DNA from: Gammaproteobacteria bacterium
GTDB lineage: Bacteria > Pseudomonadota > Gammaproteobacteria > Arenicellales > JAOTYS01
Length of the DNA stretch: 13,023 bases
Reading direction: 5' to 3'
Assembly: GCA_029861795.1 (NCBI GenBank)
Contig: JAOTYS010000084.1
Span: 1-13,023, forward strand
Part shown: positions 2,235 to 13,023 of the stretch, piece by piece
Numbering within the stretch: the stretch's first letter is position 1
Layout of the letters: the number at the start of each line of letters is the position of its first letter
Made by a program: the position numbers and the translations under genes
The notes under the pieces: model-generated
Told to the model about the DNA's origin: nothing
Databases searched by the model: none
The model's input: only the letters and a program-made list of their open reading frames with translations

Positions 2235-2575
2235 TGATAGGGACGAGTAGCTGGATCAATTAGGTGAGGAACTACCTCTCAGCGATCGGGGGACAGTGCA
2301 AGCCCCGGACCAAGCAACCAGCGAATATCCCCCTGGAGCCGCTGACCGAGCTCAGTGGGTGAACTCACGACGGTAGGCTCGGCCGGATGGCCTCCGTTAT
2401 CGGGCCGGAGTCACAGTAAGCCCACATGGCACTAGTGACAAACAAAGGCCGTGCGCCGTGAGGCCGCGGCGAAGCCGGGTGGCAACGCGAGTGTTTGAAA
2501 CGAGGCAGTATGCCTCGCGGATGAACCCATCGCCCCGGTGTTCTGGTTAACAGGGCACCGGGGCTTTTTCTTTTT
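2235..2575 (+). promoter_or_regulatory. T-box riboswitch, isoleucine (AUC) specifier, controlling ileS
   Basis: This leader senses the charging state of tRNA-Ile. Stem I: AGTA at 2246-2249 faces GAA at 2323-2325 (the loop E/S-turn typical of T-boxes), above which GCTGG (2250-2254) pairs with CCAGC (2318-2322). The lower helix can use AGGG (2239-2242) with CCCT (2331-2334). The specifier loop strand GAATATCC places ATC at 2327-2329, an isoleucine codon, matching the downstream gene. The Stem II region carries the conserved CCGTTATC (2394-2401). The antiterminator is CCGGG (2475-2479), the T-box bulge TGGCAAC (2480-2486), and GCGA (2487-2490) pairing with TCGC (2530-2533) and CCCGG (2534-2538). 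Its apical loop contains a further hairpin, CGAGGCA/TGCCTCG (2501-2517). The 3' strand CCCGG is also needed by the terminator, so the two folds exclude each other. Upstream pairing details are hand-drawn; the antiterminator/terminator switch is the firmest part. Confidence 0.88.
2532..2575 (+). terminator. Rho-independent terminator of the ileS T-box
   Basis: GCCCCGGTG (2532-2540) pairs perfectly with CACCGGGGC (2556-2564), with a possible inner CTG/CAG extension in the 15-nt loop, followed by TTTTTCTTTTT (2565-2575). It ends 13 nt before the ileS start codon. The 5' strand shares bases with the antiterminator, as expected for transcriptional attenuation. Confidence 0.92.
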
Positions 2576-2588
2576 CAGACAAATAACA

Positions 2589-5500
2589 ATGCTTACGGAA
2601 GTCACAGGGCGTTACAACGGTCCAAGTTTAGAACAACAGATTCTAGACTTTTGGCGTACCCATGATGTTTTCAAGTCGACCCTAAAGTATTCAGCGGGTC
2701 GACCACTGTTCACGTGGAATGAAGGTCCACCCACCGCCAATGGCAAACCAGGGATCCATCACGTGCTCGCCCGCACCTTCAAAGATATGTTCCCGCGCTA
2801 TAAGACCATGCGCGGCTTCCACTGCCCGCGCAAGGCCGGCTGGGACACACATGGCCTACCGGTTGAACACGAAATCGAGAAAGAGCTCAACATCTTCGAC
2901 AAAAGCCGAATTGAAAATGAGGTGGGTGTGGCGGAATTCACCCGTCGCTGCCGAGAGTCTGTGATGCGTTATATCGGTGACTGGGAAGAGATGACTGAGC
3001 GCATGGGTTTCTGGGTAGATATCAAGGACGCCTACTACACCTTAGATAATGATTACATTGAATCGGTCTGGTACCTGCTGAAGACGATCTGGGACAAGGG
3101 TCTAATTTATCAAGGCTATAAGGTTGTTCCCTACGACCCGCGGATCGGCGCCACGTTATCGTCCCACGAAGTGGCGCTTGGGTATAAAGAGGTCGAGGAT
3201 CCGTCGATCTATGTGCGGTTTCGACTCAAGGGCGAAGACAATATCTCCTTCCTGGTGTGGACGACCACACCCTGGACATTACCATCCAATCTGGCCCTCG
3301 CCGTGCACCCAGAGGTGGACTACGCCTTTGTAAAGTGTGGCGGCGAAACCCTGATTGTTGCTGTGGCCTTGGTGGAACCAACACTGCGAGACACATCCTA
3401 CGAGATCATCAAGACTATCAAAGGCACTGAGCTGGTGGATCGACGTTACCAGCGTCTGTTCGACTACCTACCGGCCCAAGGAAATATTTGTCGGGTGCAT
3501 GCGGCGGACTTCGTTAGCACCGAAGAGGGCACCGGCATCGTGCATATCGCCCCAGCCTACGGAGTGGATGATCTCGCGCTCGGACAGCGCCACAACTTGC
3601 CGGTGGTTCATGGAGTTGGGCTAGATGGCTGTTTCCTTCCGGAGGTTGAACCGGTCGCTGGTAAGTTCTTTAAAGATGCAGATCACACCCTGATTGAAAT
3701 ATTGAGCGTGCGTGGACTCCTGTTCCGCGCTGAAACCTACTTACATAACTACCCCTTTGGATGGCGCACCGGCGATCCGCTGATCTATTACGCCAAGAAT
3801 GCTTGGTACATTCGTACCACTGAATACCGCGATCGCATGGTCGCGCTCAACAAAACCATTAACTGGGTCCCGGAAGGTATACGCGACGGTCGCTTTGGCG
3901 ACTGGCTGGAGCACAACATCGACTGGGCACTATCACGGGAACGCTTTTGGGGGACACCGCTGCCTGTATGGACCGATGGAGACGGCGACTACCTGTGTAT
4001 TGGCTCGCTAGAAGAACTGGAAGAATTCACGGGACGCTCCTTGAGAGAGTTAGATCTGCATCGACCCGCGGTTGACGAAATTACCTTCACCCATCCAGAC
4101 AATGGAAAGATTTACCGCAGAGTCCCAGAAGTCATTGACTGCTGGTTTGACTCAGGGGCCATGTCCTACGCCCAGTGGCATTACCCATTCGAAAATCGAG
4201 AAAAATTCAAACAACACTTCCCTGTAGACTATATCTGCGAAGCCATCGATCAAACCCGCGGTTGGTTCTATACGCTACACGCCATCGCCACCCTGGTGTC
4301 CGACAGCGTGGCCTACCGCAACTGTGTGTGCTTAAGCCACATCGTAGATAAAGACGGCAAGAAGATGTCTAAATCCTTGGGCAACATCGTCAATCCCTAT
4401 GATGTCTTCGACCAGGTCGGTGCAGACCCACTGCGTTGGTACTTCGCAGCACGTGTTGCACCTGACGTACAGAAACGAATTTCAGTGGACATCATCTCCG
4501 ACGTTGCAAGCGGTTTTGTCAACACATTTTGGAATACTTATGCATTCTTTGTGATGTACGCCCGCTTGGATCAGTTCGATTCGAGCAAAGATATCCCTGT
4601 GGCTGAACGACCGGAGATCGATCGATGGATTCTGGCCTTGCTGCAGCAAACAATTGCGAATGCCACTGCGGCCATGGATCGCTATGATTCGCGCGGCGCC
4701 GGCGAATGCATTGAAGGTTTTGTAAACCAGCTCAGCAACTGGTATGTGCGTCGCAATCGACGTCGCTTTTGGAAGGCAGCAGCCGGTGCTGACAAGCAAG
4801 CGGCCTATCTTACCTTATACGAGGCATTGCACGCGGTACACCGACTAATGGCGCCGTTTATGCCGTTTTTGTCTGAGGCAGTCTATCAGAACCTAGTGCG
4901 CAACGTAGACTCGGATGCACCATTAAGCGTACATATGGCCAGTTGGCCCATGGCGGACCCAGCCAAACAAGATAGCGAGCTCATTGGCGAGATCGATGTG
5001 GTACAGCAAGTGGTAGGACTTGGTCGCGCTGCACGAAATCAAACGAAACTGCGTGTGCGCCAACCGCTGCCCCGGTTGCTGGTACGGGTACCAGACAAAC
5101 GTGCGATAGAGGCTATACAGCGCCATGAGGGCCAATTATTAGAAGAGCTTAACGTAAAGGCAGTAGAGCTCATCGCTAGGGATGCAGACCTGGTGAGTTA
5201 TCGGATCAAGCCTAATCTCCCGCGTATCGGTAAGCGTTTAGGTAAATTGATTCCGGCTATTCGCCAAGCGCTAAACGAAGCGGACGGCGCGAAGATTGCC
5301 GCTGCAGTGGCGGCAGGAAATACGTTCCAGCTTAGCGTCGGCGAGGAGACATTGCAGTTCGAGGCCGATGACGTGTTGGTGGAAAGCACCTCCGCCGCAG
5401 GCTATGCCTGTGCGGAGGAAGGCGGCTACCTAGTGGGGTTAGACATTGGTATCACAGTGGAGCTGCGTCTCGAAGGACTTGCCCGAGAGGTAGTCCGCAC

Positions 5501-5741
5501 GGTGCAAGAGACACGCAAACAAGCAGGGCTCGAAGTCTCCGACCGCATTACTTTACGTGTGAGCGGAAGCCCAGATGTAGAAACGGCACTCGAGACACAC
5601 AGGGAGCTACTGATGGCGGAGACGCTGGCAACAGCATGGGCTGACACCGAGTTCAAACCCGAGTACGTGGTGGAACACAGATTGGATGACGAAAGCTGGA
5701 AAATCGAGTTGGTGCGAAACTATACGCATAGACATGATTGA
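2589..5741 (+). CDS. ileS: Isoleucyl-tRNA synthetase, type 2 (IleRS2)
   Basis: A 1050-residue class I aminoacyl-tRNA synthetase that charges tRNA-Ile in the cytoplasm. I start it at ATG 2589 (MLTEVTGRYNG). The frame also opens from GTG 2538, but that codon lies in the terminator stem. No Shine-Dalgarno sequence is visible before 2589. The catalytic domain shows PPTANGKPGIHH, with the HIGH-equivalent GIHH at residues 55-58, then RKAGWDTHGLPVEHEIEKEL. The CP1 editing domain has TTTPWTLPSNLALAVHP and GTGIVHIAPAYGVDD with the conserved Asp. KMSKS is at residues 592-596. The C-terminal anticodon-binding region ends with the EGLAREVVRTVQETRKQAGL-type block of eukaryote-like IleRS and lacks a CxxC zinc tail. 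GxHH and overall architecture place it in type 2, the group known for reduced mupirocin sensitivity. It is controlled by the T-box upstream. Confidence 0.97.
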   Translation: MLTEVTGRYNGPSLEQQILDFWRTHDVFKSTLKYSAGRPLFTWNEGPPTANGKPGIHHVLARTFKDMFPRYKTMRGFHCPRKAGWDTHGLPVEHEIEKELNIFDKSRIENEVGVAEFTRRCRESVMRYIGDWEEMTERMGFWVDIKDAYYTLDNDYIESVWYLLKTIWDKGLIYQGYKVVPYDPRIGATLSSHEVALGYKEVEDPSIYVRFRLKGEDNISFLVWTTTPWTLPSNLALAVHPEVDYAFVKCGGETLIVAVALVEPTLRDTSYEIIKTIKGTELVDRRYQRLFDYLPAQGNICRVHAADFVSTEEGTGIVHIAPAYGVDDLALGQRHNLPVVHGVGLDGCFLPEVEPVAGKFFKDADHTLIEILSVRGLLFRAETYLHNYPFGWRTGDPLIYYAKNAWYIRTTEYRDRMVALNKTINWVPEGIRDGRFGDWLEHNIDWALSRERFWGTPLPVWTDGDGDYLCIGSLEELEEFTGRSLRELDLHRPAVDEITFTHPDNGKIYRRVPEVIDCWFDSGAMSYAQWHYPFENREKFKQHFPVDYICEAIDQTRGWFYTLHAIATLVSDSVAYRNCVCLSHIVDKDGKKMSKSLGNIVNPYDVFDQVGADPLRWYFAARVAPDVQKRISVDIISDVASGFVNTFWNTYAFFVMYARLDQFDSSKDIPVAERPEIDRWILALLQQTIANATAAMDRYDSRGAGECIEGFVNQLSNWYVRRNRRRFWKAAAGADKQAAYLTLYEALHAVHRLMAPFMPFLSEAVYQNLVRNVDSDAPLSVHMASWPMADPAKQDSELIGEIDVVQQVVGLGRAARNQTKLRVRQPLPRLLVRVPDKRAIEAIQRHEGQLLEELNVKAVELIARDADLVSYRIKPNLPRIGKRLGKLIPAIRQALNEADGAKIAAAVAAGNTFQLSVGEETLQFEADDVLVESTSAAGYACAEEGGYLVGLDIGITVELRLEGLAREVVRTVQETRKQAGLEVSDRITLRVSGSPDVETALETHRELLMAETLATAWADTEFKPEYVVEHRLDDESWKIELVRNYTHRHD

Positions 5742-9541: not shown

Positions 9542-10264
9542 GTGGGCGATTCCACATCCAAAAATGGTTCTTCTCCGATAGGGTTTGTCCTCTGCGTGAG
9601 CGGAGTGGCAAAGGCCACCGGTACAAGCGGTAGCGACCGGATACTGAAAATCGGAGAACCCGTGTTTGCCTACGACCGAATCGACTCTCAAGTGAATAGC
9701 TCTCTGATGGTGGAGTTGATAACGGGCTCGACGTTCTACTTGGGTGCTGACAAGACCGCAATCTTAGACAGCGATGTGTTTGATCGAGCCGGGCTTCCAG
9801 ATCCAGCGGATGCTGCCGTATCGGTCGAGGCCATTCAGCAAGCGCTCCCAGCCACCCAAAGATCTGACCGGATATTGGACGCCACGGATAATGAGGGGGA
9901 GATCACCATAGGCGACAGTGCACAACCCACAGTCAAGATCGACCAGGAAATTATTCCAGAGGCCGGGCTTGGGGCTGACTCAACAGACGAGTCTGGGTTA
10001 CCGGCTTCCGAACAGGAGGACGAGCAATTAGTTGAGAAAGAGGCTCGAAGCATCAACGCCAACGGCAGTGATCGGGCTATCGAAGCAGACGACGATGATG
10101 AAATCGACACAGAAACGGGCACAGACGGCGATACCGACACCGATGCGGATAAGTTATACTCTCAAGAGTCAAAACTCGCGGGGGTGCTAACACAGTTCAG
10201 GGACGCGACAGCACATTTTTCTTCTGTTCTTCGGAAGACGCACGAAATTGCGCTTGCTGTTTGA
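9542..10264 (+). CDS. Stand-alone LapA-type retention-module protein
   Basis: A 240-residue protein from GTG 9542, with AAGGGGGG 7 nt upstream. Residues 13-80 match the N-terminal retention module of LapA-type giant adhesins: IGFVLCVSGVAKA, a DRILKIGEPVFAYDRI segment, MVELITGSTFYLGADKT, then DSDVF. They are followed at 90-102 by DAAVSVEAIQQAL, the helix usually found just before the LapG cleavage site. In LapA this module plugs the outer-membrane TolC-like pore and holds the adhesin on the surface. Here no TAAG-like protease site, no adhesin repeats and no RTX repeats follow. Instead there is a hydrophilic linker and a strongly acidic run (residues 179-204, rich in Asp, Glu and Thr) before a short amphipathic C-terminus (QESKLAGVLTQFRDATAHF). 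There is no signal peptide. It may be a truncated adhesin, a decoy plug, or a distinct small protein. A FecR-like beta-domain is an alternative reading. Confidence 0.8.
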   Translation: MGDSTSKNGSSPIGFVLCVSGVAKATGTSGSDRILKIGEPVFAYDRIDSQVNSSLMVELITGSTFYLGADKTAILDSDVFDRAGLPDPADAAVSVEAIQQALPATQRSDRILDATDNEGEITIGDSAQPTVKIDQEIIPEAGLGADSTDESGLPASEQEDEQLVEKEARSINANGSDRAIEADDDDEIDTETGTDGDTDTDADKLYSQESKLAGVLTQFRDATAHFSSVLRKTHEIALAV

Positions 10265-10599
10265 ATAATCTAGGGTTCTGGCTGTGAAAGGTATGGAGTA
10301 GAATTTATAGCAATAGCCGCGCCCGAGTAGGCATATACGTCCGGGAATTGAGCTTAGTACTAAAAGCAGTAGACAGCCAAGTCGATCTAGGGTTAGTGAC
10401 CTGACAATGTGGTTCCCTTGTTACATCCTTCGGTCCCAGGATAGTCCTTATAAGTGCGATTCCCTTGGATGAACTTATATTACCTCAGCCACAGAGATGA
10501 TTTGCTGTCTCTGTGTTCCGTTGCACAAGCGCATTACGATTTAGATCTAGATGTAACACTGGCGGTTCGCATAGTAATACGGTAATAGTAGTAGCAGAT
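10265..10599 (+). promoter_or_regulatory. 335-bp intergenic region with an 8-bp inverted repeat upstream of the ATPase gene
   Basis: No coding frame is convincing. CACAGAGA (10490-10497) and TCTCTGTG (10508-10515) form a perfect 8-bp inverted repeat with a 10-nt loop and no T-run after it, so an operator or leader hairpin is likelier than a terminator. A 10-bp direct repeat ATCTAGGGTT occurs at 10268-10277 and 10385-10394, and TTCCCTTG at 10413-10420 and 10460-10467. No clear promoter was recognised. Confidence 0.35.
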
Positions 10600-12297
10600 A
10601 TGTACGAATCATTTTACGGGTTTCGAGAAAAGCCGTTCTCTCTGCTGCCTGACCCCAGCTTTCTGTATCTTGGCAAGAATCATATGCTGGGGCTTTCGAT
10701 GCTTCAGTATGGACTAGCCAATCAAGCAGGAATCACTGTGATCACCGGTGAGATTGGCTGCGGCAAGACCACTCTTATCAGGCATCTGCTTGACCAGATG
10801 GATCGCGATATCACGGTCGGCCTAATCACAAACACCCACAGTTCTTTTGGGGACCTGCTGCAATGGGTCCTCCTCGCGTTCGACCTCGAATATCGAGACA
10901 TGGAGCAAGTAGAGCGCTATCAGGTCTTTATAGATTTCCTCGTAAGCGAATATGCCCAGAACCGCCATACGGTGCTTATCGTTGATGAAGCACAGAACAT
11001 GGATGCGGCGACTATTGAGGAGCTGAGAATGCTGTCCAATGTCAATGCGGATAAGCACCAGGTGCTTCAACTCGTGCTGGTTGGCCAGCCCGAACTGCGA
11101 GTCACTCTGCGCCGTCATGATCTCAGGCAGTTCGCACAGCGTGTCTCCGTCGACTATCACCTTGAGCCGCTCGATGAAAAAGATACTCGAGAATACGTCC
11201 GCCATCGTATTAATTCCGTTGGCGGAGAACCGTCGATCTTTCAGTCAGATGCGTGTGAGCTGATCTACAAATACAGCAAAGGCATACCAAGAATAATCAA
11301 TATTCTTTGCGATACAGCACTGGTCTATGCATTTGCGGCAAAGAAAAAGCGCGTAAGCGGAAAAATCATAAATGAAGTCGCGTCAGATAAAAGTCGCTAC
11401 GGGATGTTCGAAATGCCAGCGGAATCAGAAACGGAAGTCTCCACTCAGCCAGAACAATCGGAAAGGCTTTCATCGGTACTAGAAATCCAATCAGCAAAAG
11501 CATCGCCCATTGACAGAGGCGGAAACGAAAAAACAAAGGAACTACACGACAAAGAAACGGGTGAGAAGAGTGGACAACAGGAAAAAAGTCGTTGCCCCGC
11601 CAACCAGGCGACGCTCATCAGCAAAAGCATAGATACCAAGAGCGACCATGATCCACATACTAGAGATTTGGAAAAGTCTGCTTCATTCGATGCTGAAGAT
11701 AGAGTAGACGCGGAAATCACTATACCAAGTTTGGAAGACGAACCGGATCGAAACGCTGGCCCTTCGAAGTTAAAAAATGACAGCGCACACGAAATTACTG
11801 TTCCATCATCACCACGGAATACGATTCAAGACGCGAAAAAAGCGCTCGCGGAAGCTGAAGAAACCCTTAGCGAGCTGCACAAACAAAATCTACAAGATCT
11901 TGCGACACTAGACAGTGACAGCGCACCGGAAGTCACGCTGCCGACGATTGCAGAGCAAGCGGACAATGAGGCCACCATTGTCGCCCTAGGAAATAACAAC
12001 AAGCAGGATATCACTCTGCCGACTTTCACGGAGAAAACAGATCAAGAAGCCGCCCTTTCGACACTACGGAGCAAAGACGCCAAGGAAGTTACTGCGCTGG
12101 CGGCGCAAAGTGATGCGGCAACCGTCGCGCCTACGCTAACATACCCACCTTGGCTTCAAGATCCCGTTGAATCACAGGGAGTCCCTACAGAACAACAGAC
12201 GCCCGAGGCGGTCAAAGAACAACCAGAATCGAAAAATGTTAGTGAAAATTCACCCCCAAAACTCGGTATCCTCCGCTGGTTAAGGCCTGCAAAGTAG
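10600..12297 (+). CDS. ExeA/GspA-like AAA ATPase with long repeat-bearing tail
   Basis: A 565-residue protein. I start it at ATG 10600 (MYESFYGFREKPFSLLPDP), the canonical beginning of ExeA-type ATPases; the frame continues upstream to 10513 but that extension is unlike the family. Walker A is GEIGCGKT at residues 50-57 and Walker B is VLIVDEAQ ending near residue 132. VGQPELR, the arginine-rich RRHDLRQFAQRV and GIPRIINILCD complete the AAA fold up to about residue 270. ExeA family members use ATP to assemble secretion or pilus machinery or occur in exopolysaccharide/XrtA loci. Typical ExeA adds a transmembrane helix and a peptidoglycan-binding domain. Here the C-terminal 300 residues are entirely hydrophilic (Lys, Glu, Ser, Asp), include the repeats listed separately and end in LGILRWLRPAK. 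It follows the retention-module gene on the same strand after 335 bp and converges with the rRNA operon. Confidence 0.92.
   Translation: MYESFYGFREKPFSLLPDPSFLYLGKNHMLGLSMLQYGLANQAGITVITGEIGCGKTTLIRHLLDQMDRDITVGLITNTHSSFGDLLQWVLLAFDLEYRDMEQVERYQVFIDFLVSEYAQNRHTVLIVDEAQNMDAATIEELRMLSNVNADKHQVLQLVLVGQPELRVTLRRHDLRQFAQRVSVDYHLEPLDEKDTREYVRHRINSVGGEPSIFQSDACELIYKYSKGIPRIINILCDTALVYAFAAKKKRVSGKIINEVASDKSRYGMFEMPAESETEVSTQPEQSERLSSVLEIQSAKASPIDRGGNEKTKELHDKETGEKSGQQEKSRCPANQATLISKSIDTKSDHDPHTRDLEKSASFDAEDRVDAEITIPSLEDEPDRNAGPSKLKNDSAHEITVPSSPRNTIQDAKKALAEAEETLSELHKQNLQDLATLDSDSAPEVTLPTIAEQADNEATIVALGNNNKQDITLPTFTEKTDQEAALSTLRSKDAKEVTALAAQSDAATVAPTLTYPPWLQDPVESQGVPTEQQTPEAVKEQPESKNVSENSPPKLGILRWLRPAK
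11713..12162 (+). repeat. Degenerate 26-residue repeats in the ATPase tail
   Basis: The motif E/D-I/V-T-x-P-S/T recurs at 11713 (EITIPS), 11791 (EITVPS), 11929 (EVTLPT) and 12007 (DITLPT), and in a decayed form at 12085 (EVTALA). Start-to-start distances are 78, 138, 78 and 78 bases, so the unit is 26 codons with one copy enlarged by 20 codons (a lysine- and glutamate-rich, possibly helical insert near AKKALAEAEETLSEL). Third-position differences between copies show an old, coding-constrained duplication. Confidence 0.7.
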
Positions 12298-12425: not shown

Positions 12426-12541
12426 GCCTGGCAGTGTCCTACTTTCACACGGGGAACCCGCACTATCATCGGCGCTGAGCGTTTTCACTTCTGAGTTCGA
12501 GATGGATTCAGGTGGTACCCGCTCGCTATGGCCGCCAGGCA
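12426..12541 (-). rRNA. rrf: 5S ribosomal RNA
   Basis: The minus strand begins TGCCTGGCGGCCATAGCGAG and ends with ACTGCCAGGC, the complementary ends forming helix I. It is 116 nt long. CCATCTCGAACTCAGAAGTG in the interior is the conserved loop B/C region, and the overall sequence is of proteobacterial, best gammaproteobacterial, type. The exact ends are inferred from helix I. Confidence 0.96.

Positions 12542-12646: not shown

Positions 12647-13023
<377 letters not shown>

Follow-up and report, generated by a model that had tools for sequence, protein, structure and literature searches.

The window, that is, the whole stretch of 13,023 bases that was analysed, carries an isoleucyl-tRNA synthetase gene (ileS) preceded by a leader with the parts of a T-box riboswitch. 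The features of the window are as follows.

660–1685: DUF6925 protein (profile search)
1821–2153: GYD-domain protein (profile search)
2158–2185, +: sigma-70-like promoter TTGCCT-N16-TACAAT before the leader (consensus scan, one found against 0.1 expected in shuffles; alone no proof of function)
2225–2540, +: T-box leader (RF00230 match)
2239–2334, +: Stem I with AGUA/GAA internal loop, base AGGG 2239–2242 / CCCT 2331–2334 (59-row gammaproteobacterial alignment)
2327–2329, +: specifier codon AUC, isoleucine (sequence; AUC in relatives)
2394–2401, +: CCGTTATC motif, end of the Stem II / IIA-B region (sequence; aligns to the conserved CCGUUA of RF00230)
2475–2479, +: 5' strand CCGGG of antiterminator helix A1, partner 2534–2538 (sequence)
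2480–2486, +: T-box bulge UGGCAAC (sequence; 88-leader comparison)
2487–2490, +: 5' strand GCGA of helix A2, closing pair G2487-C2533, which is G-C and not G-U (sequence)
2530–2538, +: 3' strands of A2 (UCGC) and A1 (CCCGG), common to the terminator (sequence)
2532–2574, +: intrinsic terminator, 14-bp stem 2532–2564 with 5-nt loop, then a T-run, TTTTTCTTTT after the stem (terminator rule/scan)
2589–5741, +: ileS, IleRS2 type, 1050 aa (TIGR00392, 930.3 bits; cut-off 621.4)
9542–10261: LapA-type retention module (34.1 bits; cut-off 50)
10513–12294: XrtA/PEP-CTERM-type ATPase (296.1 bits; cut-off 324.5)
12426–12539, −: 5S rRNA, host marker (RF00001, 84.9 bits)
12647–13023, −: 3' end of 23S rRNA, host marker (RF02541, 392.5 bits)

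The identity of the leader was evaluated via a covariance-model search. RF00230, the T-box model, matched 2225–2540 of the forward strand over its full length (1–219) with 69.5 bits and E = 5e-15, a value that rules out a chance resemblance. The preliminary description had proposed exactly this Infernal check; the match was obtained, but its score lies under the Rfam gathering score of 93 bits, and for that reason the T-box was absent from the gathering-threshold scan of the window, which returned the 23S and 5S rRNA only. Homologous leaders precede ileS in relatives, and some of them exceed the gathering score (e.g., 115.8 bits in genome G010 and 113.3 bits in G112), in agreement with the T-box identity first proposed. 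The loop E, the AUC specifier, the antiterminator and the terminator reusing CCCGG were all found where that description had placed them. The leader contains GATAGGGACGAGTA at 2236–2249, and AUC lies within GCGAATATCC. Stem I fits a T-box, as its AUC specifier matches the downstream ileS. The antiterminator strand 2530–2538 overlaps the terminator strand 2532–2545, and the two hairpins are mutually exclusive by virtue of these shared bases. The fold of 2235–2575 on this strand was better than that of 100/100 dinucleotide shuffles (z −3.16). The stem II GAA motif is absent from the window, one of four leaders lacking it among the 88 compared below, and no strong Shine–Dalgarno sequence was read upstream of the ileS ATG.

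The host was evaluated according to the rRNA. The 23S/5S region best matched G611 (85% over all 598 bases), G607 (93% over 388), G010 (92%), and G008 and G627 (91% each), all members of the order of G010; the match with G220 from the class-wide draw was 90%, and that with T-box genomes of the order of G004 was at most 89% on such stretches. Only 47 of the 80 chosen genomes matched, and the class-wide placement is therefore coarse. The record labels are Arenicellales and Acidiferrobacteraceae in the order of G010 and Woeseiaceae in that of G004. Both the rRNA and the IleRS were closest to gammaproteobacterial genomes, which bears out the host assigned earlier and rules out a Gram-positive, Chloroflexota or deltaproteobacterial contig. 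G611 and G607, the nearest by rRNA, have a native-type IleRS and no T-box match.

The distribution of the leader followed that of the gene. T-box matches were found in 40 of 196 genomes of the order of G004, one in each, and in 43 of 109 of the order of G010; the window-type IleRS was present in 44 (61–75% identity) and 60 genomes, respectively. These searches were run under Infernal's stricter filters, which drop weak matches. In the two orders together, 83 of the 104 genomes with this IleRS had one T-box match each, and none of the 201 others had any. The 21 genomes with the IleRS and no match include G099 and G124, where ileS lies behind ribF, G151 with a cut contig, and G163 with a truncated relic (L164), in which the leader start and the antiterminator are kept, the middle is lost, and the core has one mismatch. 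In 79/83 cases, the T-box preceded ileS on the same strand at a distance of 47–712 bases; in the other four (G156, G634, G658 and G659), it was on a contig other than that of the listed ileS piece. The longest gap was that of L010 (G010), where an ORF resembling by eye a glutathione S-transferase separates the T-box from ileS. Downstream of ileS, SAH riboswitch matches were noted in two gammaproteobacterial relatives (L002, 5732–5814; L003, 7559–7639). The class-wide draw gave a T-box in 2 of 369 genomes (G004 and G022), both in the order of G004. In G081, the T-box and ileS stand on a single contig of 4,059,891 bases, which speaks against a binning error. The T-box in a gammaproteobacterial genome is thus real, as first claimed; it is not an isolated case but a trait of two orders, and this spread rules out a single transfer confined to this organism.

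Conservation was examined in 88 leaders, namely the window, the 83 T-box genomes, and G005, G006, G012 and G013. The anchor pattern, which required AT and then A, C or T, located the specifier in 85 of the 88 leaders, and the specifier was AUC in 85/85 of these. In the 59-row Stem I alignment, from which three leaders without a specifier anchor, G642 (cut 5' end) and near-copies were left out, 13 of 16 consensus pairs showed compensatory change and 891/934 cells were paired, with relatedness ignored. The T-box core GGGTGG..CGCG was present in 88/88 by construction of the search pattern and exact in 85. A fixed rule identified a terminator that uses the antiterminator strand in 61/88 leaders, including the window. 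Among the 27 leaders failing this rule, five were missed or weak (G645, G160, G189, G080 and G595), the terminator of G645 being visible by eye. The remaining 22 all belong to the order of G010 and have a different platform with no terminator after the core (L091, L190–L229; e.g., G003, G657, G670 and G647). In the consensus fold of 17 leaders of the G003 type, GCGCGC of the T-box core pairs with GCGCGC directly before the start codon; this fold suggests translational control, and the helix is nearly palindromic, which makes covariation uninformative there. In L089 (G012), L138 (G166), L149 (G203) and L233 (G172), the terminator is extended by inverted repeats to stems of 27–35 pairs, an appearance that the insertion of a small repeat element into the loop would give.

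The bulge was the most divergent part of the window leader. The sequence was TGGTACC in 85 of the 88 leaders, TGGCACC in two (G641 and G642) and TGGCAAC in the window only; this last form departs from UGGUACC at two positions, more than any other in the set. TGGCAAC is present at 2480–2486 as first described, but it is a departure from the usual bulge. The structural, conserved ACC of the 7-nt bulge is AAC in the window and ACC in 87/88, that is, in every other leader; T-box membership is left intact by this departure because ACC is conserved rather than defining, and membership follows from whole-leader homology. The UGG is kept and is followed by C. The discriminator was A73 in 4/4 tRNA-Ile(GAU) genes read from four genomes, two of which have T-boxes, those with UGGU. 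A73 suits UGGU and not UGGC, and the A73 of these tRNAs, which come from other genomes, would mismatch the window bulge. In most T-box genomes, the search for tRNA-Ile recovered chiefly tRNA-Met and tRNA-Val, with one pattern-based tRNA-Ile in G592; tRNA-Ile was not found in the rRNA region of G081, nor in the UGGC genomes G641 and G642.

The pair closing helix A2 was G-C in 87/88 gammaproteobacterial leaders and G-U in G010 alone, whereas in 33 ileS T-boxes from outside the class it was G-U in 30 and G-C in three. A script gave A-U for four, G-U for two and G-C for two of the eight other T-boxes of two Anaerolineae. As the rule for the 3' antiterminator strand misplaced rows (three gammaproteobacterial; four outside rows marked GG, two unfound and L016 in the wrong place), the outside rows were read by eye, and the gammaproteobacterial count comes from a separate reading of the 88 leaders. 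The G-C pair is a near-fixed trait of the gammaproteobacterial clade that is also seen elsewhere, and it may represent a single inherited change.

The anatomy of the leader, its homology, its association with ileS in relatives and the competition of the two hairpins for the same bases were observed, whereas tRNA binding and switching by the leader are inferred. The anticodon of uncharged tRNA-Ile(GAU) would pair with AUC at 2327–2329, and its CCA end would pair with UGG at 2480–2482. The bound uncharged tRNA would then hold the antiterminator (2475–2490 with 2530–2538), so that the terminator at 2532–2564 would be blocked; with charged tRNA, the terminator would form. The preliminary description held that the riboswitch still works. 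For the window copy, this is no more than likely because the bulge is altered at two positions, and the leader may respond weakly.

A decaying T-box is the alternative that survives best, although we regard it as rather unlikely. The leader would be homologous to working T-boxes, with the switch impaired in the window and ileS expressed via terminator read-through or another signal. The two changed bulge positions, constant in 85/88 leaders, the lost stem II GAA motif, the relic in G163 and the 21/104 genomes with the same gene and no T-box would agree with such decay. However, the window retains an intact Stem I, specifier, A1 and A2 together with an intact strong terminator, UGGC is present in G641 and G642 as well, and keeping such a terminator before a sole ileS with no working antiterminator would presumably be costly. 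A bolder reading is advanced only tentatively. The gammaproteobacterial T-box lineage would not only have replaced the control of an essential synthetase but also rebuilt the aminoacylation gate, with a change to G-C of the G-U pair to which the primary steric sensing of 3'-aminoacyl-tRNA is ascribed. Some members would have moved from termination to hiding of the start codon, and the window would read the tRNA 3' end with UGGCAAC, perhaps together with a changed tRNA-Ile.

The origin of the gene was explored through its protein. The IleRS2 assignment (naming after the accessible text of PMC4861432) follows from the TIGR00392 score above its cut-off and from a tree clade shared with Chloroflexota copies; the models of the mupirocin-resistant type, MupA (816 bits, cut-off 1900) and MupB, both scored well under their cut-offs. 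The nearest proteins were those of G594 (74%) and G593 (73%), both from the order of G010, and the next after the gammaproteobacterial copies were those of Anaerolineae. In a maximum-likelihood tree of 38 of the 140 extracted proteins, rooted on three Bacillota rows, the 15 gammaproteobacterial rows and the window formed a clade with 100/100 support, nested in a 99/99 clade otherwise made up of 11 Chloroflexota rows and a single contig with the label Leptolyngbyaceae. The same nesting within Chloroflexota was obtained in a quick 112-row tree. The outside rows were drawn from the 80 best matches of one scan restricted to window-derived peptide words, and a nearer donor could be missed for this reason. 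T-boxes were found somewhere in 32 of 44 outside genomes, and a T-box core with at most one mismatch lay in the 600 bases before ileS at 33 of 67 outside loci scanned. The Chloroflexota rows around the gammaproteobacterial clade mostly carry such a core upstream of ileS, which accords with the joint transfer of riboswitch and ileS2 put forward earlier. The simplest reading is that the leader and the gene moved once together, followed mainly by descent with some losses. The Leptolyngbyaceae cyanobacterium contig (L039, 8.5 kb), with IleRS2 and an upstream T-box core with UGGC, could be real or mis-binned.

That Anaerolineae hold the nearest IleRS after Gammaproteobacteria would also agree with a contaminating or chimeric contig, in which a Chloroflexota or Gram-positive fragment was misassembled beside gammaproteobacterial rRNA. 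This explanation is very improbable, as the IleRS is 63–75% identical to gammaproteobacterial copies against approximately 50% or less to others, and the leader–gene pair recurs in 83 gammaproteobacterial genomes, in one case within a contig of 4.06 Mb.

The fate of the native ileS was explored at the ribF-ileS-lspA operon. The lspA gene was found in 17/18 T-box genomes and 7/8 controls. In 17/17 T-box genomes with lspA, a RibF-like protein ends directly before lspA with no intervening ileS, whereas in 7/7 controls the frame before lspA shows, by eye, KMSKS and a native-type IleRS C-terminus, five being placed there also by IleRS search. This contrast indicates that the imported enzyme took over the native role in the members examined. 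Retention of a native ileS beside the import was rejected in 13 gammaproteobacterial genomes, where one match of at least 619 bits was found in 12 and two IleRS2 copies in G002 (G011 and G012 partial). In G099 (L240) and, by eye, G124 (L241), the imported ileS2 lies behind ribF in the native position, that of G099 before lspA, and the T-box is absent; the imported gene thus apparently entered the native operon on at least two occasions.

Judged by homology and anatomy, the element is a T-box leader in a gammaproteobacterium, acquired with ileS2 by an ancestor. We consider it very probable that 2225–2574 is a tRNA-Ile-sensing T-box controlling ileS transcription, that the leader and the IleRS2 gene entered together from a Chloroflexota-like donor into the ancestor of the two orders, and that the native ileS is gone in the members tested. 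A plain intrinsic terminator or attenuator that does not sense tRNA and resembles a T-box by chance could account for the 3' part through the strong terminator alone, but it is extremely improbable in view of the E value across the full model, the compensatory changes in Stem I and the shared core.

The joint crossing of a riboswitch and its gene between phyla, with the native gene ousted, offers a clean case of regulatory transfer. Moreover, with G-C nearly fixed in place of the sensor G-U, a published claim on structure can be put directly to the test. MAGs labelled Woeseiaceae, a group described as widespread in marine sediment in the accessible text of PMC7082342, fall within one of the two T-box orders. 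According to the available part of a 2013 survey (PMC3766115), T-boxes occur in Firmicutes, Actinobacteria, Chloroflexi, Thermus/Deinococcus and Geobacter, and the accessible text of a 2020 paper (PMC7270179) terms them restricted to Gram-positive bacteria. No report of T-boxes in Gammaproteobacteria was found in the open-access literature searched.

Among known systems, the transcriptional ileS T-boxes of Anaerolineae (Chloroflexota; e.g., L012 and L013) resemble the gammaproteobacterial leaders in the AUC specifier, the gene, the order of parts and the overlap of terminator and antiterminator. They differ in the G-U pair closing A2, the bulge UGGUACC and their number, seven T-boxes in each of the genomes of L012 and L013 against one in the gammaproteobacterial genomes. 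The RF00230 T-boxes of Firmicutes and Actinobacteria, as far as described in the available text of PMC7583486, share the specifier loop, the contact of the bulge with the tRNA 3' end and the choice between antiterminator and terminator; the present leaders differ from them in host class and in G-C for the conserved G-U, and that of the window also in its altered bulge. The Xanthomonas SAM-I riboswitch that senses uncharged tRNA-fMet is likewise a 5' leader sensing uncharged tRNA in a gammaproteobacterium; in the portion of PMC7270179 available, it is presented without a T-box bulge or specifier loop, whereas the window leader has both.
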